This document shows positions 268-21,150 of a DNA stretch of 22,683 bases, piece by piece. The notes beneath the pieces were generated by a model. It was not told the DNA's origin and did no database searches. It saw only the letters and a list, made by a program, of their open reading frames with translations. The position numbers and the translations under genes are program-made. This DNA comes from Gracilariopsis chorda (taxonomy: Eukaryota > Rhodophyta > Florideophyceae > Gracilariales > Gracilariaceae): the NCBI GenBank assembly GCA_003194525.1, contig NBIV01000540.1, positions 1-22,683 of the forward strand, in the 5' to 3' direction. Position 1 is the stretch's first letter; each line of letters starts with the position of its first letter.

Positions 268-775
268 GTCCCAAGTCTGGGTACAGGTAAATTCCCGTCA
301 ACACGGTCTTCGGGTTATACAACCCCTCGCCTCGTTGTACGAGAAATCCAGCTGGCGCTGGCTAATGGAATTGTCTCCATTTCCCCGGATGTTCCTTTCC
401 GGATATTGGTTGCCAACCTTGGCAAACACCCCCAGTATCTGGTCAAACACCAAGTAATTGGGAGTGTAACCCCCATCCTATGGGAATGCTGCCAACGAAG
501 ATGACAGCCGCCGATGTACTCGGAGTTACCACCTCTTCTGAGGAGTTCACCCCGCCGTCCGAAGACGTCAAGTCTAAGGAGGGGGAGGAAACCGCTACTT
601 CAGCGTCGAACATACCGAGTAACTCGGAATTGCGAACCACACCTGTTCCACAGGACAATGCTCCATCGAGCAATGACCGGATTGATCCGGAAAAAGCACT
701 TGAAGCGCTGGACTTCAGCCACGTGCCAGAGTCGCACCGCGACAAACTCCGTACTATGTTACGGGAATTCACCAC
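268..775 (+). pseudogene. Element A protease-RT linker
   Basis: Two frames are involved. Around 328-470 the reading gives a block with ALANGIVSISPDVPF, which aligns with LLANGIMELRPDVPF in the element B linker (about 11990-12040). From 480 another frame gives an acidic Ser/Thr/Glu-rich stretch that ends in ESHRDKLRTMLREF, matching SHREKFRDMLRDF at the right end of the window in element C. This is the usual spacer ahead of RT. Frame changes sit near 325, 485 and 775. The last one falls at the 10-bp perfect palindrome CCACATGTGG (770-779). Confidence 0.7.
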
Positions 776-1606
776 ATGTGGGATGGCTCGCTTGGCGAGA
801 TTGATGCAACGGAACACCGGATCGATTTAATCCCCGGTGCGCGACCGGTTGCACAACCCCCTTACAGGGCAGGTCCGAAAGCTCGGGAAGAGGAGCAGTC
901 CCAGGTGGACAAGATGCTCCGCGCAGGTGTGATTGAGCCCGCTCAATCGCCCTGGGCATCCCCAGTTGTACTGGCTTTAAAGGCTGACGGAACCTGGAGG
1001 TTCTGTGTCGACTACCGCCGGCTCAATGCCGTGACTGTTAGGGACACGTACCCCATCCCTCGTATGGACGAGTGCATTGACTCCCTTGGAGACGCCACCG
1101 TGTTCACGGCCCTTGATGCCAATTGGGGATATTGGCAAGTACCTGTCAGACAGGAGGATCGCGACAAAACCGCATTCACCTGCCATGCAGGAACGTACCG
1201 CTTCAAGCGGATGCCATTTGGGTTAACCAACGCCCCCGCCACCTTTCAGCGTGCAGTAGATATTCTACTCAACCGCTTTAAGTGGCGGAGTTGTCTGGTC
1301 TACCTTGATGATATTATCATCTTCTCCAACTCGTTGGACGACCATCTCACTCACGTCCGAGACGTGCTGACCGTACCGCGATGCGGGAATTACCCTCAAG
1401 TTGAGGAAATGCGAGTTTTTCACAGATACTGTGAAGTATCTGGGTCACATTATCCGTCCTGGACGGTTAGCGATCGAGAAAGCTCGAGTCAAATCCCTCG
1501 TTGAGGCGAAAGAACCCCGTACTCAAACGGAACTGCGCTCCTTTCTGGGGCTGGTCAACGTCTATCGACGGTTTATCCCGAACTTTTCGGATACTGCAGC
1601 GCCCTG
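776..1606 (+). pseudogene. Element A reverse transcriptase
   Basis: RNA-dependent DNA polymerase domain. The frame from 776 carries the classic Ty3/gypsy RT blocks in order: the ASPVV block, FCVDYRRLN, TVFTALDANWGYWQ, RMPFGLTNAPATFQR, and the catalytic YLDD at 1301-1312. Near 1375 the frame is lost. The RT thumb/connection continues in another frame at about 1395-1606 with VKYLGHIIRPG and ELRSFLGLVNVYRRF. The sequence is close to the element C RT at 21888-22683. One oddity is DANWGYWQ where B and C have DANSGYWQ (Ser to Trp). The domain is not translatable as one piece. Confidence 0.9.
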
Positions 1607-2384
1607 AACGCGTTGTTGCGAAAGGGGAACCCCCCAAAACTGGGAACATTTACGCCCGAGCAATCGGAAGCCTTTAACTCCTTGAAGGAGGCTGTCACAT
1701 CAGCACCAATCCTACATCTCCCAAAACTTGGGTTGCCATACTCCGTAGATACGGACTCGAGCGACTACCAAGTCGGGTGTGCTCTTTTTCAAACCACCCC
1801 CGAGGGGGAACGACACCCAATTGGTTATTGGTCGCGCTCGCTCAATGTCCATGAGCGGAACTACTCCGTATCGGAGAAAGAGTGCCTCGCCGTCGTATGG
1901 GCGATGACCACTCTGCGCCCTACCTTATGGGATTTCCATTTCACGTGTACACGGATCATTCCTCACTGAGGTGGTTAATGAATATCTCCGACCCGTCGGG
2001 ACGCCTCATGCGCTGGAGACTCCGCCTCGCGGAATATGACTTCCAAGTCATTTATAAAAAGGGCGCGCAGAACACCCAAGCCGACGCTCTGTCGCGTTTA
2101 CCCACAAGTGGGGAGGCACTCCCAACGGAGGATGATGAAGTCCCATGTTTCATGGCAATGGACCCGGATGATCCGGAATGGGCCGTCGAGGCTGAGCCAG
2201 AAAACTGGGACGAAGATGCTGACTTCGACTACCTACTCGCATCGCGAGATGATTCTGAGAAACCCATACCGGGAAATTATGTACCGGTTGAGACCGAGGA
2301 AATGATCCGAGAACAATTCGGGGACCCCTTCTGTACAAGGATACGTGCACGCCTCAACGGCGGAGAGAACCTCCCTTCGGGGTG
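1607..2384 (+). pseudogene. Element A RNase H
   Basis: Ribonuclease H domain that degrades the RNA strand during reverse transcription. It is split between two frames. The frame at 1613-1969 carries VDTDSSDYQVGCALF (first catalytic Asp region), HPIGYWSRSLN and SEKECLAVVWA. The frame at about 1935-2385 carries YTDHSSLRWL and QADALSRL, followed by the acidic tether to integrase. The frame change near 1930 fits loss of one C. The last frame ends in TGA at 2383-2385, beside a CCC-TTC-GGGG hairpin where one C seems to be missing. Homologous to 21151-21816 on the minus strand. Confidence 0.88.
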
Positions 2385-3490
2385 AACGACATTGGTTACC
2401 TCGTGAGGACCGTCGAGGCTACCCCACAAGTTGTGGTACCGCACACGCTACAGAAGCGGATATTGCACCTTTCGCATTACCCGAAACTCGGGGGACACTC
2501 CGGTGGGAGGAAGCTTTATCTAACCCTTCGCAGGGATTTCTACTGGCCCGCCATGGCGGTTGATTGCTACGCTACGGTGCGGTTTTGCACGCAATGCGCG
2601 AAGAACCGGGTCAAACTCCGGAAGCACTCCAAACGGATGAAGCTATTCCCCGCCAGGGCGCCGCTCGAGTTTTGTCGCAATTGACATTCTCGGACCATTG
2701 CTCTCTACCAGGAGAGGCAACAAGTTCCTACTCGTTATTACGGACAGGTTCTCGAAATTAGTTCGGACAGTCCCTCTAAAGAGGATTACCGCCTACACGG
2801 TCGCTCCACGCCTTTGTGCGGCATTGGGTGTTTGCCTACGGACCTCCTTTGGAGCTACTTTCCGACAACGGGAAACAGTTCGCATCGCGATTTTTCCAGG
2901 ACGTCTGTCGGATACTGGACGTGAAGAATCTCTTCACGACCACGTATCATCCCCAGTCTAATGGGCAGGTCGAGCGTTTCAACCGGACAATGCTCGCAGC
3001 TCTCCGTGCTTACACGGCTGACCACCCCAAGACTTGGGATATCTACACGGATGCCGTGACCTTTGCGTACAATACGCAGGTACACCGGACTACCGGAATA
3101 TCCCTTTCGAGTTGGTCCTTTCACGGACACCCCCGCCAATGGCGTTGGAATCCCAACCTAGGTTGGACGCGTTCCCTTCTGTGAAGGATTACCGCCAGAA
3201 GTGGAAAGCATGGCTGACCAAGCTGGTACCCGCAGCGCGGAAGGCGATGGACCACGCCCAAGCCGTCTACAAACGGAATTTCGATGCTCGCTTGCGAGGA
3301 GGCAAACCGGAACAGATCAACTCCGGGGACTTCGTATTCGTCCGCAAGGAGTACTACAACCCTGAAAGGGAGAAGCACCATAAGCTCTCGCCTGTGGCGG
3401 ATGGTCCTTTCAAGGTTATCTCCGTCACGACGGACACAGTGGTTGTGGAAATGGGTGACGCGCATGAGCGGTTATCTCGCGATCGCATCG
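2382..3490 (+). pseudogene. Element A integrase
   Basis: Retroviral-type DDE integrase in four frame segments. The zinc-binding HHCC region lies at about 2460-2620 (HLSHYPKLGGH, then CTQC), with LTLRRDFYWPAM between. The catalytic residues are Asp at 2683-2685 (AIDILG), Asp at 2864-2866 (LLSDNGKQF) and Glu at 2972-2974 (NGQVERFN). The last two are 36 codons apart, the DD35E spacing of the family. The C-terminal GPY/F-like module (DGPFKVISVTTDTVVVE) follows at about 3400-3450. Frame changes near 2675, 2808 and 3098 disable it. It would join the cDNA ends to the target DNA. Confidence 0.9.
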
Positions 3491-4944
3491 TGCTAGCTCC
3501 GCCACCCTCGACTGAGGCTGCACCAGCTACGCTGGACCCTACGCTGGAATATGGCTCTGCATCCGATACATCGGTGGTGAGACGGCCTACCGTGCTACCA
3601 CACCCCTCCCGGGGACTTTCAGACCTACCGACCCTGTCGGACTCACCGGCTCAGCCGGGTAATTCGGGCCTCTCTGTGCCCGCCCCTATGGCGCGAATCT
3701 ACACCCGCCAGGCGGGGCATGTTATCCCTTATCCCGCCGCTCCGTCTCAGGAGGGGGAGGAGAACACTCGTTTTCGAGGAATGAGATCGCCGTCGCAACG
3801 GGAAACACGCCGTACCATACGGACAACTGACCGTGGAGCACGGAGTATCTCACGCGACACTAATCCCCCGTCCTCGGGCAGCGCTGTGCAACAGGAACCA
3901 GACGCGCAGGTCCCGCAAAGGCGGCAAATACACCGTGTTACACGGGAAGCTGAAACGCAGCTACCGCACACCCCTGTCAGGGAAGGATCCCCGATACGGG
4001 AGTACGGCGACAATCGCCCTCAATCCCCTGAGCAGGGAGATGCCTCAAAGCCGCCATTGGCGGAAGTCCCCGCGGAAGCGGTTCAATCAGGTCGCTCAGA
4101 CCCGCGCCCCGCGGAGAAGAGGCGCCCAGATACACCAGCGCCGCTGGGAAATACCCACACCCCTATCGGGGAAAAGGGTAGCCAAGCCGCATCCGAAGCT
4201 TCAGGCCCTGGCGCGCAGCGCTCGGAAACGCTCCCCGTCGCAGACGGAATCGAAGCCCCCGTTCCGGGGAATAATTTGCGCCAACCACCGCAACGCTGCG
4301 GCGAAGAACCGAGGAACTCGGGAAAAACGCGCGCCATCGCACGCTCGAAACCGGTCGTATCGGACGCTGCTCCTCCTCATGGAGACGGTGCACCGCACTT
4401 AGCGGCCAGGCCCCTGAAAAGGGTGTCATCGGCACCTGCCCGGCACCCCCAAAGGGGAATTTTGACCAAAATACCGGTGTACCGGAGTTAGCCTTAGGCA
4501 ACCCCCCAGTAGCCGGGGACACCACGGCGCCGCCGGAACGTACGGTGCAGAGCGCTCGTGCGCCTGGCAGGGAGGCGGTTTGCCATCCAACCACCGTGTC
4601 GCACGGGACCCCCCAGGGGATCGTGGAAACGCCGATTCCGCAGGAGCGGTCATCTTCCCGCAAACTCGCGGTTCGTGAGTTCAACCGCGAATGCGGAGTT
4701 CAAGTCCCCCGCCGGTTGGCGGTTCGCCTGGCCTACCGTGAAGACGGGAACAACGACACCCCAATGGGGAATGACTTGCCGGGGAAAACCGTGACACCAC
4801 ATACCCTCTTGAGGGATATTTTCCCGCATGAGCAGCGGCCACTAAGACAGCGCACGGCAACGTCGGAGTTATCGCCGAACACCCTGCTAAGGGACATTAT
4901 ACCGCACCGCGGACAACCCTCGCAAGGGAGTACAACCACCACCC
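3490..4944 (+). pseudogene. Element A integrase-chromodomain linker, unusually long
   Basis: About 480 codons of Pro/Arg/Ser/Glu/Thr-rich, apparently disordered sequence separate integrase from the chromodomain. One frame is open to 4491 and a second from at least 4545. The stretch shares little with element C except the block VLPHPSRGLSDLP (C: VLPHPKRGLSDLP). Near its end a short motif, TLLRDI followed by PH, occurs twice (about 4797-4830 and 4873-4908). The segment is exceptionally dense in short perfect inverted repeats (see findings). Long open frames also appear here on the other strand, but they lack homology and I treat them as by-products. Confidence 0.7.
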
Positions 4945-5171
4945 GGCACGGCCGGCAGGTCTACGAACGAGAGTTCGTAGTAGACCGACTTGTCGGACAC
5001 ACCTGGGACCAGGATGGTATTCTACAATACCGCGTCCGCTGGTACGGGTACGACCCCAGTGGGGATACGTGGGAGCCAATTGAACACCTCCCACGGTCGC
5101 AGATCGTGCGATACCACCGTCAAACGGGAACTGCAGCCCCAGCCACGCTGGTTAATGCCCAAGTTGGGTAA
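4945..5171 (+). pseudogene. Element A chromodomain and Pol C-terminus
   Basis: The open frame 4545-5171 ends in a canonical chromodomain at about 4962-5125. It contains EFVVDRLVGH, a variable loop, then YRVRWYGY and DTWEPIEHL, which is the beta-sheet and C-terminal helix signature. Chromodomains of chromovirus integrases bind methylated histone H3 and steer integration into heterochromatin. The domain itself is unbroken although the upstream Pol is not. It aligns with the minus-strand chromodomain of element C (18658-18820). The stop at 5169-5171 leaves 193 bp before the stop codon of the convergent gene. Confidence 0.9.
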
Positions 5172-5364: not shown

Positions 5365-7044
5365 TCACTCTTCGCCGTTGCCCGGGGCGTAACCCCCAAC
5401 AAGGCGGTAGGCCAACGCGTCCGCCATGGTGGTGACATCCCCCGATACCTCGGCAGCGCTAAGACCGGCACCCCGGAGGAAACGTGCGATGATTTCGTTT
5501 TCATTCGCCGTCACCCCGCTGGGGATAGAAGGTCCGGCACTTGCCGTTGAAGGGTCAGCAGCCGGCTCGGCCGGAGATACCCCCTCTGGGAAAGCTTCCG
5601 CGCTAGCGCCGGTTTCCTCTACGTCCATCTCCCCGGGTTCTTCCGGTTCGTTATCGACCATTGGGTCATCCCCGCCGTATGCGTGGTAGTAGTCGTCAGA
5701 ATCGACGTACCCCACCGGGTGGTCTTCCGGCACATGCCGGGGCGTATCGCGGAGCTCTCGCGCCTCCTCGGAGGAAATTTCCCGGAACTCCCAGGGGTCG
5801 AAGTAGATAAAATCCCCCGCAAGGGCGGTGTTTCTACCGAGTCCCGGACCACCGGTGTTACCGCTGCCGCCATCCAGACGACCGCTTTGCTCCAGCGGGA
5901 CCTCACTCCAGCTAACGCTGTCGATGTACCCAAGTAATTGGAGGACCTCTTCATTGTTGGCCTGGCCCCCAAGGGGGATGCGAAGATCCAGGTTTCGGAT
6001 CGCTGCCCGCACACGCGGTTGAAGGAACCAGAGACGATACTGGTCGTACGCCTCGTTGAGGATATAAGCCGCACTGCGGGCCGCCCACTCCGTAACCACT
6101 ACGGACCACAACCCCGACCGGGGATCCTGCATGAGCAGCGAACCGAGGTACGTAAGTACCGGCGGGAGTTCTATGTAGCACCCCCAGCAGGCTTCATGGA
6201 AGCGCCACCACTCGGGGAGTGCTACATACCGACCTAGTCGGTGAGGCGGCGCAATCCGCTCTATCTCCACGTTCTGATACGGGATAAAGTACCCGAATCG
6301 GGATCGCCAACGCCGCTCGTAGCGGATGAAGTTTTGGAGAAAGTTGGACCGGTATTGCCGGGGAAGGTACCTGAACTCCGCCCGAATAATCGGTCGCTCC
6401 CAGCAAAGGGCCTCTTGCCGCGCTGCGGGGAAATTCCTCCAAGCGAGGGTCTCGAGGCGGAACAGGTTCTCGCCGTACCCAATCTCCCCGCGAGTGCGGA
6501 AGTAGCTAACGTCGAAGCCAAACTCCGGTGGGACCGGTACATCGAATGGAGCCCGGCTCTGCCGTTGATACGCCATACGCGTCAGCGCGGTCTGTGCCGC
6601 AGTGACGGTCTCGCCCGAGTTTCTTCGGAGGTGGTGACGCGGAATCGCAATCCGGTGACGCCAATCCCACGATGTGGTGACTGCTCTGGGCAGATCCCCC
6701 GGAAGGGTGTCTGAACCATCCGCATAAGCGGTGACCAATCCCTCATTGAGGACGGCGACCGGGTGAAACCACGGGGCAAGGCGCAGGCGCGACGCGTGAT
6801 TCCGATTCATCGGGTTGAGCCCCACCAGGGTGTTGTAAGTTGGCCAGTTGGACACCGGAGTGGTCCCGGAGGACACCACCGAAGGTGGTAGTGCGAAGGG
6901 ATGGTCGGCTTCAGCAGCCATATTTCCCGGTTGTACCGGATTTCGATCGCCCTGAGGCAGGGGAACTGACCGGAAACCGGTGGTGTATCGCCCGAGAAGT
7001 CTCGGAGGTTGGCTGTGGTTATTGATGTTGTTGTCGTCGTTCAT
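5365..7044 (-). CDS. Element A antisense gene: unknown conserved protein, 559 aa
   Basis: An intact gene on the strand opposite to gag-pol. I do not recognise the family. I start at the ATG at 7044 because a TATA-like box (7139-7146) overlaps the region just after the further upstream in-frame ATG (7152). The N-terminal ~80 residues are low-complexity Asn/Gln/Pro. A Trp/Arg/Tyr-rich core of ~300 residues follows (APWFHP, SWDWRHRIAI, RPIIRAEFRYL, SRFGYFIPYQNVEIER, TEWAARSAAYI, IPLGGQAN, IYFDPWEF, RHVPEDHPVG). Then come an acidic stretch (DDPMVDNEPEEPGE) and a short predicted-helical tail. I see no signal peptide, membrane segment, zinc motif or Env-like feature. The product of 16559-18274 is homologous over the whole length, roughly 45% identical by eye in the core. 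It carries no frameshift, unlike the adjacent pol. Function unknown. Confidence 0.85.
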   Translation of the reverse strand: MNDDNNINNHSQPPRLLGRYTTGFRSVPLPQGDRNPVQPGNMAAEADHPFALPPSVVSSGTTPVSNWPTYNTLVGLNPMNRNHASRLRLAPWFHPVAVLNEGLVTAYADGSDTLPGDLPRAVTTSWDWRHRIAIPRHHLRRNSGETVTAAQTALTRMAYQRQSRAPFDVPVPPEFGFDVSYFRTRGEIGYGENLFRLETLAWRNFPAARQEALCWERPIIRAEFRYLPRQYRSNFLQNFIRYERRWRSRFGYFIPYQNVEIERIAPPHRLGRYVALPEWWRFHEACWGCYIELPPVLTYLGSLLMQDPRSGLWSVVVTEWAARSAAYILNEAYDQYRLWFLQPRVRAAIRNLDLRIPLGGQANNEEVLQLLGYIDSVSWSEVPLEQSGRLDGGSGNTGGPGLGRNTALAGDFIYFDPWEFREISSEEARELRDTPRHVPEDHPVGYVDSDDYYHAYGGDDPMVDNEPEEPGEMDVEETGASAEAFPEGVSPAEPAADPSTASAGPSIPSGVTANENEIIARFLRGAGLSAAEVSGDVTTMADALAYRLVGGYAPGNGEE

Positions 7045-7138
7045 TTCTCCCTTGTCGAGGGTGGCTGTTGTTGTCGTTTGTGCACTTGAGGACTCTGGTG
7101 CGGAGGAATTTACCGGAGAACCGGAGACAAAGCACTCG

Positions 7139-7146
7139 CTTTTATC
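7139..7146 (-). promoter_or_regulatory. TATA-like box of the element A antisense gene
   Basis: The minus strand reads GATAAAAG here, about 95 bp before the ATG at 7044. It aligns by position with the better TATAAATAG of element C (16447-16455): both lie some 45-50 bp beyond a shared GAAAACGA block next to the polypurine tract. The agreement in place is the evidence; the sequence alone would be weak. Confidence 0.5.
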
Positions 7147-7196
7147 ACCCATTTTCGTCTGGGAATCCTCCGCGTCCGCGGTCGTTTTCCCGTCTT

Positions 7197-7206
7197 AGGG
7201 GGGGGA
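7197..7206 (+). other. Element A polypurine tract
   Basis: AGGGGGGGGA lies immediately before the LTR start. In Ty3/gypsy elements such a tract primes plus-strand DNA synthesis. Element C has AGGAGGGGGA in the same place, and both are preceded (in pol orientation) by a shared CGTTTTC block. Confidence 0.8.
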
Positions 7207-8015
7207 TATGAAGTGCAACGCCCTCAGGGAGGGATTCTTGGTACTTGATTGTTTTCCCGATATTATCGGTTGTGTAGTGTGTATATGAACTACGCCCCAC
7301 TACGGTGGGTATGGACACGTGGGACACGGTTTTGGGTCAATTGGCGGTTGGCCACAGTAGTGGATGTTGCCACGGAATGTGGAGTACTTTAGTTAATTTT
7401 ATTTATTATTTTCACACCCATTTCTGGGAAGCTAGTACTTAGTGCGACGGCGCACTGCCGTCGCACCAGTAAACCTTCCCCAACAAGGGACCCCAACCTG
7501 GGGAATTGGCTCTGAGCTTTACCGCCTCCGCGTGTTCTCAACTCCTCCTTGGAGGGAAGCACCGTAGTGTACGGAAGTTCACCCCCCTTGCACATCTAAA
7601 GGAGACCCATCATTGGGAGTACTAATTGTTCCAATCATCTTGGTGTTTCGCCCTGTATAGGGAGTCCTGTCCACCGGCATCGCCGTATCTACTCGTCGCT
7701 CTCGCGACCCACTCGTCCTTCCTCTTTCCCCTTTTTAGGGTAGCACCTCCCGCTATCCGCGGCCCTCGTGTGCGCATCCGCTCACACACCCCCACTTACG
7801 TGGAAACATACCTCTACTGAGGACCACACCCCGCTCACGCGGATACCGATTCTTCGCCTTCACCTCCCTGCGCGAGTCGCGACAGGTGTCCCTGCTCTTA
7901 CAAACCGGCTTCGCCGTGACACCTCTGGGAGGGCTCTACCCAACTGGGTTCACCTCGTGAGAGGAAGATCCCGGACGTCTTTCGGTGTTTTTCCCCTTTG
8001 GGGCATTGCACCACA
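7207..8015 (+). repeat. Element A 3' LTR (809 bp)
   Basis: It starts directly after the polypurine tract with TATGAAGTGCAACGCC, which aligns with TGTGTAGTGCAATGC of the element C LTR, so the first dinucleotide TG appears mutated to TA. It ends with ATTGCACCACA at 8005-8015; the inverse complement of this, TGTGGTGCAAT, is also the terminal sequence of the C LTR. An AT-rich promoter-like stretch at about 7388-7415 is followed by GCTAGTACTTAGTGC (7431-7445) and a 10-bp-stem hairpin at 7442-7466. The 5' copy is outside the window. Open frames crossing it are not genes. Confidence 0.85.
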
Positions 8016-8305
8016 AATGGACGACAGCATCAATCCCGAATTAGAAGAACTCGCCCTCCGCCAGTCCACGATCGAACAGGCCATGCAGCCGCATGCTGAT
8101 AATCCACAAGACGGTACGATATATGATCTCGACTCCGCAGCCTACCCTTCCTATATCACTAACAAAACTGAGCTGCAACCGCTGAGCTCACCACTCACTA
8201 CCAAAACTGCCGACGGTAGAACGCACAACGTAACACACCGTAGACAGATAACGCTGACAACGAGCAATAAACCGATCACAATCCGGACAGCTCTATATTC
8301 CCCAT
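8016..8305. other. Unassigned 290-bp segment between elements A and B
   Basis: This lies between the A 3' LTR and the B 5' LTR. A + strand frame is open from ATG at 8017 up to the start of the B LTR (97 codons, first residues DDSINPELEELALRQ). The 5' part looks protein-like and acidic, the rest is Thr/Ser-rich. It has no counterpart elsewhere in the window. It could be a host exon fragment, the gag start of a further element, or non-coding DNA. Its first bases could act as one copy of A's target duplication (8016-8020) and its last bases as one copy of B's (8301-8305, cccat). Confidence 0.45.
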
Positions 8306-8969
8306 TGTAGTATAGCGGGCCCGCCCGGGAGTGCACTTCAGAGTGTGCTTGAGTGCCTTCAAGCACCGTATCCGAGCGGATTGTTTGGCACGTTATGATT
8401 GGCCGAACGGAATCATTGAGTGGTGCACGGGAGCGGGCAATGCCATTGGTTGTGCACTCATAGCCCACAGGTGTACACGTGCCGGACGGCTGAGGTGCAG
8501 GGTTGCTGCGCCAGACGGACAGGTAGCCACGTGGCTGGTGGCATTTGTACGATAGGCTTAGATATTTTAATAATTTTATCCGTACGTAGTAGAAGGGTAG
8601 CGATTGCGGTGCAGGTTGAGCTCGAGGTGCAGTACTTAGTGCACCTCGCTCCCCGCTACCCACACTCAGTAAACGGTAAGCACCACCGTCCCGAACTACT
8701 TTTGTCTCTAAAGCAGACCTGAGACATTACTCCGTACGGGACTCAACTAGGTTTACAAGCCGTTCGGACTCTTCGCGCGTATCTCGACCGCGCCTGACGT
8801 ACCTAACCGCCCAGTCTTTCCTACGACCGCCCGGTGCTGGCGCTCGTCCCCACGCATCACCTCCCCCCCGACCGGATCTCGTGACCCATCACGCCCCGCT
8901 ACGCACGCCGAGCGGATACTGCTTCTAGGACACACTTTCAATTGTGTGAATTAGAGTCACTATCTCACA
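8306..8969 (+). repeat. Element B 5' LTR (664 bp)
   Basis: I place it from TGTAGTATAG to CTATCTCACA, ends that are near-inverted repeats of each other, directly before a tRNA-primer-like TGG. The boundaries are inferred, because the 3' copy is not in the window. Inside are an AT-rich promoter-like stretch (about 8560-8581) and a 9-bp-stem hairpin whose loop contains GTACTT (8623-8648). The element A LTR has GTACTTAGTGC at the corresponding place. Two copies of the element-wide octamer also occur (8403-8410, 8760-8767). Confidence 0.75.
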
Positions 8970-8970
8970 C

Positions 8971-8982
8971 TGGTCTCCCGAC
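8971..8982 (+). other. Element B primer-binding site (candidate)
   Basis: TGGTCTCCCGAC begins one base after the LTR end. The TGG start is what a site complementary to the CCA 3' end of a tRNA requires. I cannot name the tRNA without the host tRNA set. Confidence 0.55.
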
Positions 8983-9044
8983 CTAGAAGTGGGACTCGTG
9001 ACTTTCCGTACGGATTTTAGAACGTTTTGGATAACGAACACGAG

Positions 9045-11285
9045 ATGCAGACACGTGACGCAAACGTAGAGTCGACCGCAACGGTCGATGTCGAAAAAGA
9101 ATTGGCTCCGTCCGGCGAGCCACCAATGCAGACCGCTTCGGACAATGCCTCGGTTGGCCGCCGCAGCACCCGTAGCACTGCACCAGCTCCGGACGTCCGA
9201 TTGGAGAACCCCGAGGCGCTCGTGCGCAAAGCTCCTTGCTCCTCCCGGGCTTCTCAAACGCCTACCGACCGGAATTTAGGCCCGTCAATAAACCCAGAGG
9301 GTGCAGCACCGCTCCCTCTACTTGCCACTCCGACCGGCCTAGTGGCAGCCGAAATTCCCGCACGGACGCTCCCAGAACTGTGGAAGCAGCTCGAGCCCTA
9401 TTGGGGTTACAAGCTGAAGAGCGAGCTTGCTGCTCGTGTCCCCGTTCGGGTTGAGCGCTACCTGCAGGAGCGCCTGCCAGAACTGCTGGCAGAACTGATT
9501 ACCCCGACGGTCCGCCAGACCACCGAGGCAATCCTTCAGCAGCTCCTTCCGACCGGACTTGGTGCCATGAAGCACGAGGACCGTACGGCAGTTTATACGG
9601 CAGCGACAACGCTGCCACCCCTTCCCAAGTTTTCCCTTGGCCGACCGGACCAAGCCCAATTACACACCGGACGGGATGAGGAACCCCACCCAGAAGGGGG
9701 CCATCAGAGTGCCCCCATGGTCCCAGTCCTCCCGGTGGTTCCCCACCGAGATGATCCGAACGGAAATTCAGACAGCTCCTCTTCTAACGAGGGAAGAGGG
9801 GGCCGCCGTGACAGGGGCGGCAGAGCTGACAAGTCCGACACGGATCGCCCTCGCCGCGCACGGAAGAATCGTCGCCGCAGGAAAAAGCGACATTCCTCCG
9901 GTTCGGATACTGATTCTGACCGCTCGGATAGTTCCGATGCCGTTTCCGGAACTGATAGCGACTCAGACTCCGACCGTTCTGGCCGCAGAGGCCGCTCCGA
10001 CCGGTATCGTTCCCGTTCGGAAAGATCCGCGCCTCGGCGCATCAAACCACTGAACGAATTGTTCACCAGGGTGGTGAATTATCGTACGTACCGGCTAACC
10101 AATCGTAGCCAATCGTACAACTCGCGAGTCGCGCGTAAGATTACGCGCTACCAGAAGAAACTGAATGTCCAGATGAAGGGACATTCGTTTTCCGGAGCGG
10201 ATCCGATATCCGTTCTAAACTTTTTACAGCGGTTCAAGACCGCCTGTAACCATAACGGACTGTCCGAGGGAGCAGCGGTATGGTGCTTCCAATTCTACCT
10301 GACCGGACCGGCTCACTCACTGATCCAGTCACGGCTCATGGGAGAGTCGGGCGCCGTGGATGTACGACGTGGCGAGATGCTCCGCTCATACTCCGAAGTC
10401 GTCAACTTTTTATTGACAACGTACGCAACGGATGAAATAATTGCCGACGCGTACTCCGAGGTCACCCTCTACCGTCAGTCGTCGGGTATGTCCGAAACGG
10501 AGTATTCACAGAAGCTGTGGAACAAGGCCCTCCGTTGCGGCAATGTATTCTCCGACCGGCGTTTAAAGTCTCTATTCGTGGAAGGATTACTTCCTTCCAT
10601 TCGGGCGAAGGTGAGAAATCACCTTACGACGCATCCGTCCATCGGCTATGATGCGTTGGCGAGGTATGCCGAATCGTATGGCGACACCAGCCGTTCGGTA
10701 CGACGACAATCCGTTCGGCTTGACTCCCTTCCCCATCCCACGGGGAAAAGGGTGGCCGCTCGTACAGACCGTCGGAGTGTCCTAAGCATGGGGAGCCGTA
10801 CGGATTCGGTAGCCTCCGACACCGATGACGGTGAGGCCGTCCTGGCATTTACCCCGGTCGGCTCCGCCCCATCACCCCCCACGACGCCGTCAACCGCGAC
10901 GACCTCGTACCGTTCGGGACCCTCCCGATCGGATTTTTATAAGCCTGCTGACGCTCGGGCACCAACGAACCGACAGCCGGACGGGAGGCAGTTGATGGAC
11001 AAACCGTGTCGGATTTGTCTGTCACGGGAACCGGACCACTGTCAAATGATCCCTCCGAACGTTCGGGATGCTCTGCTAGCCGCTCGGGAACAAAACTACC
11101 AACTTCGCAAAGAAGAGAGTTACTACAACCGTAACACTCCCGGTCGGTCCAGCATTGGGGTCCGGACCCCTGGGTCAGCAGACTCCGAACGGAAACCTCC
11201 TGCATACGATCACGTCAACCGCTCAATAATGGCCGTTGAAGATCACGGCATGTCCGAGTCGGAAAACGATGTGGAGGGAGCGTAG
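9045..11285 (+). CDS. gag: Element B Gag (746 aa)
   Basis: Structural protein of the virus-like particle. The frame is open from before 9027, and the first ATG is at 9045. The N-terminal ~100 residues are low complexity. A helical, charged stretch follows at about 109-152 (LWKQLEPYW to LPELLAEL). Residues ~239-332 form an Arg/Ser/Asp-rich region with a strongly basic run near 266-282, resembling an SR-protein domain with a nuclear signal. The capsid-type Retrotrans_gag domain is at about 382-552 (FSGADPISVLNFLQRFK to YAESYG). Near the C-terminus C655-x2-C658-x6-H665-C666 resembles a zinc knuckle but lacks the standard CX2CX4HX4C spacing. The protease frame overlaps the last 46 nt in the -1 frame. 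No breaks. Confidence 0.93.
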   Translation: MQTRDANVESTATVDVEKELAPSGEPPMQTASDNASVGRRSTRSTAPAPDVRLENPEALVRKAPCSSRASQTPTDRNLGPSINPEGAAPLPLLATPTGLVAAEIPARTLPELWKQLEPYWGYKLKSELAARVPVRVERYLQERLPELLAELITPTVRQTTEAILQQLLPTGLGAMKHEDRTAVYTAATTLPPLPKFSLGRPDQAQLHTGRDEEPHPEGGHQSAPMVPVLPVVPHRDDPNGNSDSSSSNEGRGGRRDRGGRADKSDTDRPRRARKNRRRRKKRHSSGSDTDSDRSDSSDAVSGTDSDSDSDRSGRRGRSDRYRSRSERSAPRRIKPLNELFTRVVNYRTYRLTNRSQSYNSRVARKITRYQKKLNVQMKGHSFSGADPISVLNFLQRFKTACNHNGLSEGAAVWCFQFYLTGPAHSLIQSRLMGESGAVDVRRGEMLRSYSEVVNFLLTTYATDEIIADAYSEVTLYRQSSGMSETEYSQKLWNKALRCGNVFSDRRLKSLFVEGLLPSIRAKVRNHLTTHPSIGYDALARYAESYGDTSRSVRRQSVRLDSLPHPTGKRVAARTDRRSVLSMGSRTDSVASDTDDGEAVLAFTPVGSAPSPPTTPSTATTSYRSGPSRSDFYKPADARAPTNRQPDGRQLMDKPCRICLSREPDHCQMIPPNVRDALLAAREQNYQLRKEESYYNRNTPGRSSIGVRTPGSADSERKPPAYDHVNRSIMAVEDHGMSESENDVEGA

Positions 11286-11860
11286 AGGCAACGCCCCCTC
11301 CGAGGTCGGAACGCCTCACCCGAACGAACGGTTTAGATTCTTCGCCCAAGCCGGACGAAGTGTACGTTGTAGATGAGTATGAGCCGACAGCCCCAGTGGC
11401 CCTTTTAAAGAATACCCACTATAAGATAAACTTTTCTGTGGGATTCTCCCGCTCGGTCTTGTACCCCCTCACCGGTGTACTTGACACCGGCGCTGGCCCT
11501 AACCTCATCCACGAACGGAACCTCCCCCCTAATTGGGAGGAGCATCTCCAATCCCGTTCGTTCACCAACATCACGGATGCCTCTCGGAATCGTAGGAACA
11601 TCCGTGGTGTTGTTCCCCTACTCGTACACATCGGAGCTCTAACCGTTCGGATCCCCTTTCTCGTTGCCACCAACCTCGCGGCCAGTTGTATTCTCGGTAC
11701 TTCTTTTATCGATAAGTACGTCATGCCAATACTACAGACCCCCCTCCTGGACAATAATCTTACGTCACTCCCACCCCGTGGCAATTCAATCTTCTGCCGG
11801 TCGGTCCTCTCGCTCGCCGGGAGAGCACGTACCGGCTACCACTCGGAAGACCCCTTCTAA
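11240..11860 (+). CDS. Element B aspartic protease
   Basis: Retropepsin that matures Gag and Pol. The frame is open from 11240 (after TGA at 11237-11239) and is -1 relative to gag, so a -1 frameshift inside the 46-nt overlap is the likely route of expression; no ATG stands at its start. The active-site triad is in DTGAGPNLI (DTG at 11483-11491), and the second conserved block is SCILGTSF at about 11685-11710. From about 11775 the homologous reading passes into the +1 frame of RT, and the protease frame runs on to a stop at 11860. The switch coincides with a CCCC run (11774-11777), consistent with a one-base insertion or a sequencing error. Confidence 0.85.
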   Translation, partial: RSRHVRVGKRCGGSVEATPPPRSERLTRTNGLDSSPKPDEVYVVDEYEPTAPVALLKNTHYKINFSVGFSRSVLYPLTGVLDTGAGPNLIHERNLPPNWEEHLQSRSFTNITDASRNRRNIRGVVPLLVHIGALTVRIPFLVATNLAASCILGTSFIDKYVMPILQTPLLDNNLTSLPPRGNSIFCRSVLSLAGRARTGYHSEDPF

Positions 11861-14800
11861 TAAGATACGGGTCGCCCGACCGGTCGTCATACCCCCCATG
11901 TCGGAATCATCCGTCCGGGAAACCACCAAGGCGGCCGGCCTTGCATTCTTGCAAGGATATCACCGTTCGGCTAGCCGGCAGGAGTTAACCCTCCTGGCCA
12001 ATGGCATCATGGAACTCCGTCCGGACGTACCATTTTACGTCCAAGTGGCGAACTTTTCCGACCGTCCGGTACGCTTACACAAGCGTACAATCATCGGATT
12101 AGCTCTACCCTCCCCCATCGCGTTAATCACACCGGAATTTCCGTCACGGAGTGACGAAACTAAGGAGGGGGGACCCTTGCCTAATTCATTTTCCGATACG
12201 GACAACGCAGCTAACCCGCGCGTTCAGGCGCCACCAAAGGATCCGGACGATTGGATATCCAATATCCAATTGGCGCCCGAACACGAATCCGAACGGACGA
12301 AGATTGTCGAGCTACTGCGCCCATTCCGGGATATGTGGGACGGCCATCTCGGACGTGTGGCAGCGGCAAAACACCGCATTGAGCTGGAACCCGGCACGCG
12401 GCCAATTTACCAAATGCCGTACCGTGCGGGCCCCGCTCGTAGAGAACTTGAACGAGCGGAAGTCGAAAAGCAGCTCAGACAGGGCGTTATTGAGCCCTCT
12501 ATATCTGAGTGGGCCAGCCCGGTCGTGTTTGCTCAGAAGAAGGACGGTAGCCTGCGCTTCTGCGTAGACTACCGCCGCCTAAACAAAGCAACCGTACGGG
12601 ATACCTATCCACTACCGAGGATGGATGAATGCATCGACTCCCTTGGGGAGGCGAAGGTTTTCACCACCCTCGATGCCAATAGCGGATATTGGCAAGTGGA
12701 AGTGGATGAGACCGATCGGGACAAGACTACCTTCACCTCACACATGGGGCTGTTCAGGTATTTACGAATGCCGTTCGGATTGAAGAATGCTCCGGCGACG
12801 TTCCAACGTGCACTGGATATCATCCTATCCCGTGTGAAGTGGCAGTACGCATTGGTCTACCTTGATGACGTCATCATCTACTCCAGTTCGGTAACCGAGC
12901 ACTACGAGCACGTACGGACAATTCTGACCCTACTCCGATCGGCAGGCGTGACGCTACGTCTGGACAAGTGCCACTTTTTCAGTAGCACGGTCGACTACCT
13001 TGGCCACATCATCCGTCCGGGCAAGCTTCAAGTGTCCACAAAGACACAAGAAGCAATCCGAGCGGCTAAGCCACCGACCAACCAGACAGAGCTCCGATCG
13101 TTCTTAGGCCTGTGTAACGTCTTCCGCCGGTTCGTCAAGAATTTCGCTCGAGTTGCGGCACCGCTTAACCGCAAGCTCGAGAAAGGCCAACCGGTCTGCT
13201 TCGATACTCTGTCCGATGAGGAATACCAGGCGTACGATGAGTTACGGCAACGGCTCATTCGACCGCCTATCTTGGCAATTCCGCGCCAAGATATGCCGTA
13301 CGTTCTGGACACTGATGCCTGTGATAAACAGGTAGGTTGCGTTCTCCTACAGAAGCAACCGGACGGCGACCTACTCCCGATCGGCTACTGGAGCCGTTCT
13401 TTGTCGAAACCCGAACGGGACTACACCACGACCGAACGGGAATGTCTCGCCGTTGTATGGGCGATATTGCACCTCCGACCGTACCTGAAAGGCCAGAGGT
13501 TCACGCTCCGCACGGACCACCACGCATTACGGTGGATACTCAATCTGGCCGATGCCACCGGTCGGCTAGCGCGATGGCGCCTGCGCCTCATGGAGTACGA
13601 ATTTGACATCGTACACCGACCGGGAGTTAAGCATCAGGCAGCCGATGCTCTTTCCCGAATCCGAACGGACGGCGAAGACACCAACCCCCTTGACGAGGAG
13701 GTGCCGTGCCTCCTGATATCCGACCGAGCGGAAGAAGACGACGATTTGGTCGCCGATGTCACCATCGACGGACAGGAGCACCGAGGCGTCACGCTGGACA
13801 CCCCGTGCGGACATGACCCGGTCGGAATTCCAGAGGTCCTCGCAATAGTCGAGGAAGAGACGGACGTCCGGCCAATCACGGTCGAAGAATTCGTCCGAGC
13901 CCAGGCCGAAGACGGATATTGCAAGACCGTGCGGAAGGACATTGGTAACGGTGTCACGCTATTCGACGTGAACCGGTACGGAATTATCGTCCGACGCTCC
14001 CCCTTGGATGGTGCTCTCCAGCGAGTGGTGCCCCGTGCACTGGTACCGCGCGTGCTGTATCTCGCGCACTATCCGCGCTTGGAAGGGCACCCGGGCGGGA
14101 CCCGCATGTACAATACCCTGAGGAGGGATTTCTACTGGCCGCAAATGGCGAACGATGTGTTCCAGACCGCACGGGACTGTCGATCGTGCGCTGCCGTGCG
14201 GGGAACTCAGTACCGGTCGCAGAAGCGACTCAAGCTGTTTCCCGCTGCCGGACCATTGGAATTTGTCGCAATGGACATTGTCGGTCCATTCCCGAAGTCC
14301 GTCAACGGCTACGAGTATATCCTCGTCATTACCGACCGGTTCTCTAAATTATGCCGCGCTATCCCGCTACGGTCAACCACAGCTCCCGTGGTTGCCAGGG
14401 CTTTCCTGGAAAACTGGGCGTATCCGTACGGCATTCCTAACCACCTACTTACCGATAACGGCCCGCAGTTCGTCTCCAAGTTTTTCGAAGACGTCTGCGC
14501 CGCACTGGGGACAAAGCACGTGCGGACCACGGCATATCATCCCCAGACGAACGGTCAAGCCGAACGGTTTAACAAGACACTGGTGCAACGACTGCGACAC
14601 TATGTCGCAGACCACCAGTCTAACTGGCACGCTTACGTGCAACCAATTACGTACGGATATAATCTACAGGTCCACCGCAGCACCGGGACCACGCCTTTCG
14701 ATTTGGCGTTAACCCGTGTCCCGCCGAACGTAATACTGGATGAGCCCAGTTCCGCAACGGACCCGCGAACGCCGGTGCAACCGACGCCCGCACAGATGAA

Positions 14801-15536
14801 GCGTTACACTCTACGTCTTTTAAAGACGACACTTCAGTCCGCTCGGAATCGCCTCACCGCTGCGCAACGGCGTTACAAAGAGGACTTCGATAAATCCGTA
14901 CGGCTAACTCCAACCTTCCGAGTGGGACAGGAAGTCTTTCTAGACCGCCCGGCTACTACTTCGACCGATGCGGCCCTGGAGGAGCACGAACGTACGTCAC
15001 GGAAGTTTTCATTGAGAACGACCGGTCCGTACGTCATCATATCCGCGACGGACACCACCGTGACCATCGACGTTGACGGCGTTCATGACACCGTCAGCAT
15101 CGATCGCGTCACGTTGGCCCCCGCTCGGCAGTCGAAATCGCACGGCAGGAGCCCCCCGGACGGAAATGCCCAAGACACGCTGACCGGAAGCACTCCCGCT
15201 CAATTGCGAGATACCCCGAGCGGTACAAATAGTTCCAAGCGGACGTCCCGGCCACTAACACCTAACACACCCCCAGCCACCGAATTGGCAGAACCGGACG
15301 GCAGAGTGGATCTCCCTAAGGCGGGAACCTCACCAAACGGAGACACAACACCTGCCCGGGACCACGAGTCTTCCCCGAACGGAAACCGACCGCCAACGAC
15401 GTTGGCCGTTGTCGACCGCATTGTCGACCACGGCCGATCGGCCAACCACCCGTACGGAAGATTATACCTGTGGTGCAATCCCGGTGTGGGAAAGGCACCC
15501 ATAGCAGCTCGAAGCCTTGCTCTCTTGGAGAGGTAG
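11664..15536 (+). CDS. pol: Element B Pol: RT, RNase H, integrase, truncated chromodomain
   Basis: The frame is open for 1290 codons, but the homologous reading starts only near 11778; the upstream part of this frame overlaps protease. RT: FCVDYRRLN, DANSGYWQ, MPFGLKNAPATFQR, YLDD at 12858-12869. RNase H: LDTDACDKQVGC, TERECLAVVWA, TDHHALRW, ADALSR. Integrase: zinc region (HYPRLEGHPG, CRSC), then Asp 14274-14276, Asp 14454-14456, Glu 14562-14564 (DD35E), and a GPY/F module (TTGPYVIISATD). The chromodomain begins at about 15403 (VVDRIVDHGRSANHPYGRLYL) and breaks at 15468. The last 21 codons and the stop are element C LTR sequence. Probably catalytically competent, but targeting is lost. Confidence 0.92.
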   Translation: MPPTSRPVVFSVLLLSISTSCQYYRPPSWTIILRHSHPVAIQSSAGRSSRSPGEHVPATTRKTPSNKIRVARPVVIPPMSESSVRETTKAAGLAFLQGYHRSASRQELTLLANGIMELRPDVPFYVQVANFSDRPVRLHKRTIIGLALPSPIALITPEFPSRSDETKEGGPLPNSFSDTDNAANPRVQAPPKDPDDWISNIQLAPEHESERTKIVELLRPFRDMWDGHLGRVAAAKHRIELEPGTRPIYQMPYRAGPARRELERAEVEKQLRQGVIEPSISEWASPVVFAQKKDGSLRFCVDYRRLNKATVRDTYPLPRMDECIDSLGEAKVFTTLDANSGYWQVEVDETDRDKTTFTSHMGLFRYLRMPFGLKNAPATFQRALDIILSRVKWQYALVYLDDVIIYSSSVTEHYEHVRTILTLLRSAGVTLRLDKCHFFSSTVDYLGHIIRPGKLQVSTKTQEAIRAAKPPTNQTELRSFLGLCNVFRRFVKNFARVAAPLNRKLEKGQPVCFDTLSDEEYQAYDELRQRLIRPPILAIPRQDMPYVLDTDACDKQVGCVLLQKQPDGDLLPIGYWSRSLSKPERDYTTTERECLAVVWAILHLRPYLKGQRFTLRTDHHALRWILNLADATGRLARWRLRLMEYEFDIVHRPGVKHQAADALSRIRTDGEDTNPLDEEVPCLLISDRAEEDDDLVADVTIDGQEHRGVTLDTPCGHDPVGIPEVLAIVEEETDVRPITVEEFVRAQAEDGYCKTVRKDIGNGVTLFDVNRYGIIVRRSPLDGALQRVVPRALVPRVLYLAHYPRLEGHPGGTRMYNTLRRDFYWPQMANDVFQTARDCRSCAAVRGTQYRSQKRLKLFPAAGPLEFVAMDIVGPFPKSVNGYEYILVITDRFSKLCRAIPLRSTTAPVVARAFLENWAYPYGIPNHLLTDNGPQFVSKFFEDVCAALGTKHVRTTAYHPQTNGQAERFNKTLVQRLRHYVADHQSNWHAYVQPITYGYNLQVHRSTGTTPFDLALTRVPPNVILDEPSSATDPRTPVQPTPAQMKRYTLRLLKTTLQSARNRLTAAQRRYKEDFDKSVRLTPTFRVGQEVFLDRPATTSTDAALEEHERTSRKFSLRTTGPYVIISATDTTVTIDVDGVHDTVSIDRVTLAPARQSKSHGRSPPDGNAQDTLTGSTPAQLRDTPSGTNSSKRTSRPLTPNTPPATELAEPDGRVDLPKAGTSPNGDTTPARDHESSPNGNRPPTTLAVVDRIVDHGRSANHPYGRLYLWCNPGVGKAPIAARSLALLER

Positions 15537-16384
15537 GCCCAGCTGGGTAGAGCCCTCCGTGTCCCGTATGACGGGTGTAACTCCGTCGGGAGCCTGGATG
15601 TACCTCGGAGGTTTAGGGGTTAGAACGGGTCGGAACCACGGCTGGTCCGGAAGTAGCCTGCGAACAGTGGAACAAAAGAGGGAAAGGGACCACCCGACGG
15701 GGGCGTGCGGAAAGCGGGAACAGACCCCGGAGGGGGGTGCCGATACACACACCCGAACACGCACCGCGCGGCGGCTAGGGGATATGAGGGGAAGGGATGG
15801 TCTCACGGTCTCACGACACACGTCGGTAATATCAATACCCAAAACTGGGGCGGAGGTAGGGCCTGTACGGGCGGTCACACGACAACAACGAATACCACGA
15901 GTGGTCACAACCCACTGGGTACGACGAGCACGGTCTCCTCGGTGGTGCGAGTCGGGTGAAACTATCGGGCAAGCGGTGTACCTCCGCGAGGAGCTAGACA
16001 CTTCGCATGGCGAATAGAGTCAGAGCCGAACTCTTGTTACTTTTCTTGGTGAGCTCTGCCGCCGTGCGGCCGACGCTCAAGTACTAGCTCAGTGCAGTAC
16101 AGTAGGTAGTGCACTAGCCTAAGTAAAATTAACCCCTAAACTATACTAAAATAAGTAGCCATTTTGGGCCTCCTGGCCGGGGCTGTAGCCACGTGTCCAC
16201 CACCCTTGCCAGGCAAGTACCACAAAATATGAATGTTCCCATAACCACCCTGGGTAACCAGACCGCTAATTAGCCCGGTAAACGGGGGCTAAAATTCATG
16301 CATCCCGCTTCATCGCTCGCACCGAGTACACCTCAGATATGAGTTTCGCCATCGCCCGTACGCGGGAATGCATTGCACTACACA
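15469..16384 (-). repeat. Element C 3' LTR (916 bp)
   Basis: On the minus strand it runs from TGTGTAGTGCAATGC (16384 downwards), just after the polypurine tract, to ATTGCACCACA ending at 15469. The ends form an imperfect 11-13-bp inverted repeat, and both ends resemble those of the element A LTR. Internal landmarks on the minus strand are an AT-rich stretch (GGGGTTAATTTTACTT, about 16119-16134), GAGCTAGTACTTGAGC (16075-16090) and a GC-rich hairpin (16058-16070). Open frames on both strands here (for example 15517-16017 +) show no homology and are not called. Confidence 0.8.
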
Positions 16385-16399
16385 TCCCCCTCCTTAAGG
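16385..16399 (-). other. Element C polypurine tract
   Basis: The minus strand reads CCTTAAGGAGGGGGA directly before the LTR. It corresponds to 7197-7206 of element A and would prime plus-strand synthesis. Confidence 0.8.
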
Positions 16400-16558: not shown

Positions 16559-18274
16559 ATGACCAACACTCCGTTTTCGAACGACCCGCCTGCGGGCGCC
16601 CCGCAGGGGACTTCCGCGAGCGGACAACCTTCCTTCGCGACGCCGGGGTCGTGGGTTCGTCACCCAACCTCTGGGTTCCTCTCCTTGCCTCTGCCTGGGG
16701 GATCGTCTCATGTTCCAACCATGGATGCCTCGGATGCCGCGAGTATCGCCGCCTGGAATTCCGCTCAAGCGATACCGATCACTGCGACCGCCGCCGGCTG
16801 GGTGTCACCATCGACACTTTGGGCCCGCAATCCCCGGGAAGACGCTCTCCTCTTTTCGCGTGCGCCCTGGTTCCACCCCACATGGGTTTCCGACTCGGAC
16901 CTCATCGACTCCTATGTGGAGGAGGGCGAGCTCCCAGGGGGACTAGGCCGGGATATGGTCGACTCCTTCGACTGGAGGACGCGTATCGCGGTAGAGCCAC
17001 AGTTCCTCGCACGGAAGCGCACCAGATATGGTTTCGAGACGCTGAATGAAGCCCGTGCCGGGATGGCCAAGGTCGCCTACGACCGTCTCGCCCGCGCGAG
17101 TTATCCGGATGAGCTGATACCAACGGAATACAGCTTTGACCTCTCGCGGTACCGTACCTACGGTGAAGTCTCATACTGCGAGAACCTTGCTGCCTACCAG
17201 CCATCTACACCGTTCCGGTCCACTCCAATAGAAGCCGGGATGCTCCTCTGGAGGCGCCCAATTCTGCGTGCAGAGTTCCGATATCTTCGTCGTCCGAATC
17301 ATCGCGGATCCTTCTTCGACCGACTCCGGTTTGAGCGAAAGGCGCGCTCCCGCTTCGGGTTCCTGGTACCATACCAAAATCTCGAGGTCGAGAGGCACCG
17401 CCCATCCGCGATGCGCGGCCGGTATGCACCTCTTCCCCATTGGTGGAGCAGGTTCGAAGTCCCGAGGGGATGCTTTGCGGAGATGCCTCCGTGCCTCAGC
17501 TACATCGGTTCACGATTAATCAACAATCCGGATTCCGGTTACTGGACTCTCTTCCTCGCCGAATGGGCTGCTCGCGTTGCCGCATTTCTCCTCTGGGAGG
17601 TGTAGGACAAGAACCGTCTGTGGTACATTCCTCCTCACCTACGCCAGGTTATCCGCCAATTGGATCTCTATATCCCTCTGGGATCCGAAGCCAATGTGGA
17701 TGAGATTCAGTGCCTTCTGAACACCATCGATATGGTTAACTGGGATACAGTCCCAGTCTCCAACGTCCCTGACGGTGAGCCTTCCAGGCATGATCGCTCT
17801 CCAGGCCGGAGAAATCCAAACGCTGGCAACTTCGTCTTCTATGACCCTTGGGAGGTATCCGTGACTTCACGGGCTCACGCGCTAGCGTTACGCGATGTAC
17901 CACGCTCCGTTCCGCGAGGCCACCCGGTTGGGTTCATGTTTTCCGATGACTGGCACGGTTCCTACGAGGATGATCCAATGGTGGATGACGACCCCGATGA
18001 GGTGGGGGAGGCCGTAGCCCCGGTAACGGCGATGGTCAACGATCTCGACGGATCCGGCCAGCATGTGGCTGCTCCAGATGGCTGGAATATGGCCGCCAGT
18101 GCGGCTGCTTCTCCGTCTACCGCATCTCCGGTCCCCGTGGACCCTCAGGCCGTTGCCCTCAGGGCTCACCTCCAGTCCATTGGAGTGGTTGCGCCTTCCA
18201 ACCTCACCAGCGTGAGCGAGTTATTGGCTTTCGCGTCTGCGAACTACCAACCGCCAACGAGCGGCTCATCCTAA
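16559..18274 (+). pseudogene. Element C antisense gene: homologue of 5365-7044, one in-frame TAG
   Basis: The frame reads from ATG 16559 to 18274 (571 codons plus the terminal stop), interrupted only by TAG at 17603-17605. The core matches the element A protein block by block: APWFHP, SFDWRTRIAV, RPILRAEFRYL, SRFGFLVPYQNLEVER, AEWAARVAAFL, YIPLGSEAN, VFYDPWEV, RSVPRGHPVG, then acidic DDPMVDDDPDEVGE and a helical tail (LRAHLQSIGV). The TAG falls where A has Tyr (A: AYDQYRLW; C: V-stop-DKNRLW), so a single base change explains it. The homologous sequence on both sides and the lack of indels suggest a recent nonsense change or readthrough. The in-frame ATG at 16373 lies inside the LTR and upstream of the TATA box, so I reject it as start. 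Function unknown. Confidence 0.82.
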
Positions 18275-18610: not shown

Positions 18611-19394
18611 CTACCCAACCTGGGCCATGTCCAAAGTGGATGGGAGTGGGAACCGCGTCCGGCGGTGGTAGGTTATCACCTTGGAACGAGGAAGGTGCTG
18701 AATGGGCTCCCATGTGTCCTCTTCCGGGGGGTATCCGTACCATCGGATTTGGTAAAACCACACTCCTTTGGAGTCCAGAACATGATCCACGATGTGGTCA
18801 ACGACAAACTCCTGGTCGTACGTAGCCGGTTCCTGACCCGTCATGGCAGGGCTTAAGGGGAGAACCCTGTGAGGGGACTTGCCTGAAATTGGCGCGACCC
18901 TGCGGGCAAAGTCAGCTTTCCTCGACGCTGCGAGTGCTGGGACTTGATACCGCATTGCGGTCTTTCCGCTTCCTAATCCTCTCCTTGTGGGGGGGGCCTT
19001 CCGTTCTAACCGGATTCCCCTATTGACGCGCAGCTCGCGAGCTCTTCTCCCACGCGACCCGTGCAACTCTGGTGAGTTTGACCGTTCACGGTGAGGGAGG
19101 CGGTTCACTACGGTTCCGACGCCAGGAGGCGGATTGCCATGCATCACACACTGTGATTGGCTGGCCGCTGGCGGCAAGTGTCGCGCGCGGTCTTTCCACG
19201 ACGCGGGTCTTGACTGTACTCCTGACGCCGGCCGGCGGTATGTACGTGTACACCTTTCCACGGTTTGGAATTTCGGGCTTCGTCCGCGTGACAGTAGCGT
19301 CACAGTGTCCATTTGTAGTGCTCTGCGGTAACGCACGCAGTGTCAACCACACTCTCCGTGTCCGCGGTTGCTTTTCAGCTCACCACGAAACTGG
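18611..19394 (-). pseudogene. Element C chromodomain and Pol C-terminus
   Basis: The frame open to the stop at 18611 ends in a chromodomain at about 18820-18658: EFVVDHIVDHV, WFYQIRWYGY, EDTWEPIQHLPRSK and TYHRR. It matches the element A chromodomain and, by family knowledge, would recognise methylated H3 tails. The upstream part of the frame is low-complexity linker with little likeness to A. Both copies end with almost the same last residues (A: NAQVG; C: DMAQVG), so the Pol terminus is conserved. Confidence 0.88.
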
Positions 19395-21122: not shown

Positions 21123-21150
21123 TTCCTCAGAGGATATGGGAACAACCTGG

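Follow-up and report, generated by a model that had tools for sequence, protein, structure and literature searches.

Antisense genes between pol and the 3′ LTR of retrotransposons form an established class, one without proven function in the sections of the plant review cited here (PMC7264820). Why the LTR elements of distant hosts place an extra protein gene antisense, with functions given as unknown in the same sections, is the question raised by a gene at positions 5365–7044 (minus strand) of a 22,683-nt stretch of DNA from the red alga Gracilariopsis chorda. This stretch, hereafter the window, is contig C536 of the 91.3-Mb assembly of this florideophyte. The gene has a defined position relative to pol, is present in many copies and many families, and is under purifying selection in the family of its own element. 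We consider it the third gene of red algal chromodomain Ty3/gypsy elements. By analogy with antisense proteins of other elements, its product would most likely be a trans-acting nuclear regulator of the transcription of its own copies or an antagonist of host silencing, a reading to which we give a probability of about one half. Open-licence literature, searched by title and abstract start, yielded no description of such a gene in the retrotransposons of red algae. The red algal case adds many diverged families within one small genome and, in a young family, selection acting on codons; it makes testable whether unrelated antisense proteins have arisen for the same job.

The element that carries the gene, A, reads on the plus strand in the order pol, chromodomain ORF, antisense gene (7044 to 5365, minus strand), polypurine tract and 3′ LTR. 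Its reverse transcriptase to integrase region (704–4491, plus strand) is split into ORFs at 704–1504, 1505–1969, 1855–2385 and 3022–4491. The chromodomain ORF (4275–5171, plus strand; PF00385, E = 5.3 × 10−11) lies in a frame different from that of the integrase ORF, and its end at 5171 converges on the end of the antisense gene at 5365. A polypurine tract (7197–7206, plus, the sense strand), found at the same place in six family copies, adjoins the 3′ LTR (7209–8015, plus strand), which was delimited from LTR copies and pairs, ends and flanks. The LTR is directly followed by AATGG (8016–8020), the target duplication of a matching insertion on another contig (C198:131676–143217). Since the two share a flank and encode 100% identical proteins, they are probably one insertion represented in two contigs; the LTRs of the C198 insertion differ at 1 of 809 positions. 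The pol of window A (366–4491, plus strand) is broken into several ORFs and the antisense gene of the same copy is intact. Pol frames reach 1885 aa in some A-like copies.

The antisense frame of A runs uninterrupted from 7194 to a stop codon at 5365–5367 and contains possible start codons at 7152 and 7044. Among seven copies, pN/pS along this frame is 0.29 in codons 1–14, 0.76 in codons 15–50, 0.20, 0.14, 0.13 and 0.12 through codons 51–510, and 0.35 and 0.30 in codons 511–609. Because codons 15–50 look unconstrained and constraint begins at the inner methionine, we favour the start at 7044, which gives a protein of 559 aa plus stop; the upstream in-frame extension (7045–7194, minus strand), with the second methionine at 7152, is probably leader rather than coding sequence. 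An antisense additional ORF is expected to be conserved and present in most copies of its family. Here the frame is under selection in family A and free of internal stops in 62 of 72 family rows among the matches listed, a sample rather than a census that includes both the window copy and its C198 twin.

Element C presents the mirror image. On the minus strand it comprises a chromodomain ORF (18611–19342; PF00385, E = 1.6 × 10−10), again in a frame different from that of the integrase ORF, and a reverse transcriptase to integrase region (19395–22532) with ORFs at 21888–22532, 21151–21930 and 19395–21179, the last with rve and Integrase_H2C2 domains. Its polypurine tract (16385–16395, minus, the sense strand) occupies the same place in four family copies, and its 3′ LTR (15469–16382, minus strand) was placed from LTR copies, pairs and ends. 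The antisense gene lies on the plus strand as a first piece (16559–17605) and a second piece in the same frame (17606–18274), whose end converges on the chromodomain ORF end at 18611. Aligned with the product of A, the pieces share 130 of 322 residues (40%, E = 4 × 10−65) and 53 of 123 residues (43%, E = 2 × 10−30), and such values over two stretches show that the likeness is not due to chance. The preliminary description of this DNA had credited A and C each with a homologous gene facing pol. The homology holds; the C copy, however, is interrupted by an in-frame stop (17603–17605), with which the first piece ends. A 643-aa frame free of stops is found in 39 of 106 C-family rows among the matches listed, some of which are pieces of one copy, so that this too is a sample and not a census. 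The frames, polypurine tracts and LTRs confirm the placement originally proposed, after pol and before the 3′ LTR; in both elements the gene is antisense to gag-pol at this site, the layout that defines the aORF-3R class. In the window copies of both A (3022–5171, plus strand) and C (18611–21179, minus strand), the chromodomain ORF is out of frame with the integrase ORF, an offset that may reflect frameshifting, splicing or damage.

Between A and C lies the 5′ part of a further element, B (8306–15468, plus strand), with a 5′ LTR from 8306, gag at 9021–11285 and pol from 11643 that encodes RVT_1, RNase H and rve domains. C sits in the chromodomain region of B and interrupts it at about 15468; B copies elsewhere run through this point and have integrase and chromodomain in one frame. 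The antisense gene of window B would lie beyond the window. On contig C163, a 468-aa antisense frame past the B pol (L077) and before a B LTR matches family members, although it is very diverged (best match E = 2 × 10−9, 25.5% identity over 192 aa). Judged from these alignments, the nested element B is the twelfth family of the antisense-gene set. Chromoviruses are characterized by reverse transcriptase, RNase H and integrase together with a chromodomain that closes pol on its 3′ side, and these domains are found here (RVT_1, RNase H and rve in B, rve in C, Chromo in A and C), an assignment made by domain content.

Is the gene part of whole elements? We chose ten cases in which both LTRs appeared among the matches listed, six of family A (contigs C198, C161, C8, C23, C135 and C46) and four of family C (C75, C3, C33 and C69). 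All enclose the gene, with LTR spacings of 10.7 kb (A) and 10.0–10.5 kb (C) in elements of about 11.5 kb and 10.9–11.5 kb, respectively. In all ten, the LTRs are 99.6–100% identical (0–2 gap columns not counted) and a 5-bp target duplication is readable. The likely primer-binding site, TGGTCTCCCGACC, follows the 5′ LTR in eight, has one base changed in the C46 and C69 copies, and is also present in element B. All ten are complete, young insertions.

We then asked how widely the arrangement occurs. A search of the host genome for elements of the same layout, as the preliminary description had suggested, gave 54 loci, gathered with A, C, BWQ96_03215 and P0005 as queries plus one further search and thus not a random sample. 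In 47 of the 54, the 3′ end of the gene is followed by a chromodomain encoded on the opposite strand. The remaining seven (L021–L027) all belong to the BWQ96_03215, or P2, group and have no chromodomain within about 1 kb past the gene 3′ end; in L023 and L024 one is present on the other side of the gene, and the ORF listing of L026 shows nothing obvious. This group is perhaps non-autonomous, or has been rearranged. The representatives make up 11 families less than 70% identical to one another (A, P2, P3, C, C2, D, E, G, H, I and J), and with that of element B the sampled families at this threshold number 12 in this genome. Relatives of the protein occur in Gracilaria domingensis, Agarophyton chilense and further database records; these searches scored the best 8000 candidates each, and wider relatives may exist.

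Two relatives, BWQ96_03215 and FGB62_50g12, are annotated as ordinary hypothetical proteins, as might be expected if the gene were a host gene carried as a passenger. We regard such a capture, or a chance open frame, as very improbable. BWQ96_03215 of G. chorda, matched at 100% over residues 1–491 on contig C30, itself belongs to a multi-copy group, and the number of families, the selection in A and the convergent chromodomains at 47 loci also speak against both. With 12 families less than 70% identical sampled in one genome, the gene is no stray capture, and the single capture of a host gene that the preliminary description named as its refutation is not what we find. The BWQ96_03215 product on C30, annotated as a host hypothetical protein, is a member of a repeated element gene family, and some proteins annotated as hypothetical in red algal genomes are explained in this way as element genes.

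Selection was estimated from copies within and between families, as point values. For the family A gene, pN/pS is 0.276 (nine copies), indicating purifying selection, and the control frames give 1.24 (+1), 1.54 (+2) and 1.04 (antisense). Between G and G2, dN/dS is 0.22, and the printed pairs between families have dN of 0.29–0.70 with dS above 1 or saturated. Ratios in C (0.56), E (0.66), D (0.70), H (0.73) and P2 (1.03) are less favourable and come variously from a single pair, from very young copies or from old ones. A dN/dS near 1, with no homologues in other elements, had been put forward as a refutation; values are well away from 1 in A, in G and between families, but 0.56–1.03 in these five. 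The earlier proposal of an accessory protein of a chromodomain-element lineage is supported by the 12 families, the red algal relatives and the purifying selection in A.

Whatever messenger the gene produces runs antisense to the 3′ region of the genomic RNA. The RNA itself could thus be the main agent, pairing with the 3′ genomic RNA and limiting copy number or feeding small-RNA silencing, or the protein could be a self-limiting copy-number factor; the review names this possibility (PMC7264820). We think this unlikely. Amino-acid constraint in family A is confined to the gene frame and absent from the three other frames tested, which argues against RNA alone while saying nothing against a self-limiting protein. 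Selection at the codon level means that the protein matters; the antisense RNA may have a further role too.

Trees of the gene and of pol for nine families share the groups (D,J) and (A,(G,G2)), and the gene tree supports the second at 94/97; the pol tree was built from short pieces (90–230 aa). Only midpoint rooting puts B, which has a long branch, outermost, and the positions of C, H and I differ between the two trees, at weakly supported forks. As far as these sequences go, the trees agree with co-descent of gene and pol, short of proving it.

The antisense protein, about 560–690 aa, consists of a disordered N-terminus (residues 1–100 in A, numbered from the methionine at 7152), a helical core of ~380 aa, an acidic linker and a short helical end. 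An acidic tail is present in 26 of 26 rows. The core is predicted with a mean pLDDT of 89.4 and a pTM of 0.89 (29 sequences). Searches against Pfam, the PDB and known folds gave no convincing match, and the core model matched no solved structure in the search run; this confident model without a match is part of what the red algal case adds. In Pfam, the 26 members hit 7 weak families only, with no nucleic-acid-binding domain recognized. Lysine is very rare in the family cores. The A core (5671–6789, minus strand) contains none, as is also true of the P2 and G cores, and arginine makes up about 11–13% of all three.

A protein conserved in so many families could serve a core function of the element. 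Made from antisense messages of resident copies, it might act in particles or integration: in assembly, in bringing the cDNA complex into the nucleus, or in an Env-like or cell-to-cell capacity. Such roles are discussed in the plant review (PMC7264820). In a Kyte-Doolittle scan over 19 residues, five rows out of 26, from the D and E families, reach 1.65–1.99, which would suit such a role, but the other 21 stay below 1.6. No Gag-, Env- or import-like Pfam domain was found among the 26 members, and the gene is antisense in A and C, unlike env, which has sense orientation. The lack of similarity to Env noted at the outset is borne out by this orientation and by the Pfam result, and we view a particle or integration role as possible but doubtful.

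Known antisense proteins provide a frame for comparison. The Retand protein of flowering plants carries a TRP28 domain (PF04195), with function unknown in the part of the source cited, and belongs to a non-chromovirus lineage (PMC11963269); PF04195 is found in 0 of 26 members at the thresholds used, and A and C carry a chromodomain. Judged by the Retand domain, this agrees with the original impression of a protein unlike the plant antisense ones. The antisense genes of maize Grande (gene23) and of RIRE2 share position and strand with the gene described here, a likeness of layout (PMC7264820). In the fungus Botrytis, the Boty element has an extra antisense gene, brtn, alike by description (PMC8365987) and grouped with the cases between pol and the 3′ LTR (PMC7264820). 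HBZ of HTLV-1 is likewise encoded antisense and expressed under the 3′ LTR of the integrated element (PMC3736048, PMC10186651). It is a bZIP factor, whereas the protein here has no such Pfam domain, so that HBZ is a working likeness only. We place the gene in this layout class and in no named protein family, gene23, RIRE2 and brtn having been compared by description only.

These systems also suggest how the gene may work. HBZ is reported to act on transcription (PMC3736048, PMC10186651); the Retand domain is predicted to bind DNA, and an effect on transcription has been proposed for the Retand antisense protein. The Grande protein is found in the nucleus and has a promoter of its own (PMC7264820). 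Here, the messenger would start at or near the edge of the 3′ LTR. As genomic RNA is of the other polarity, element DNA would be the only source of the protein, and a gene expressed from DNA copies, from a start near the 3′ LTR, would be suited to trans action on the resident elements. Such action would most likely take place in the nucleus and, on the model of HBZ and the plant proteins, consist of transcription regulation or anti-silencing. Six of 11 representatives (A, P2, P3, C, H and I) have a methionine codon 45–55 nt from the beginning of a stretch of pyrimidines, which is likely the polypurine tract seen from the strand of the gene. In A, this is not the favoured start, which counts against the start model. 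The LTRs of A, B and C contain an AT-rich block 178–245 nt inside; exact TATA-like boxes occur in B, C, D and E, and none in 5 of 13 representatives.

A nuclear role in transcription or anti-silencing draws on the young LTR pairs, the 47 of 54 convergent chromodomains, the selection in A and G/G2, the 12 families, the shared tree groups, the acidic tails and the plant parallels. Against it we count the absence of a recognized nucleic-acid-binding domain, the pN/pS of 0.56–1.03 in C, E, D, H and P2, the conflicting placement of C, H and I, the P2-group loci and the non-uniform TATA-like boxes.

Lysine content offers a lead, and a lead only, toward a more specific version. Lysine deserts have been described for the ubiquitin-proteasome system (PMC10169902). 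Conceivably, though we would not expect it, the protein could have a new fold and serve the retrotransposon that encodes it as an antagonist of silencing, with DNA copies as its only source. It would work with the host degradation machinery in the manner of a lysine desert while its scarcity of lysine shields it from ubiquitin. Gene pieces from the 12 family representatives contain 0–7 lysines versus 4.9–11.1 expected from base composition, a shortage that counts as one trend because the representatives are related. Among gag and pol pieces, lysine is above expectation in 6 of 7, the reverse transcriptase of A being below it (6 versus 6.7).
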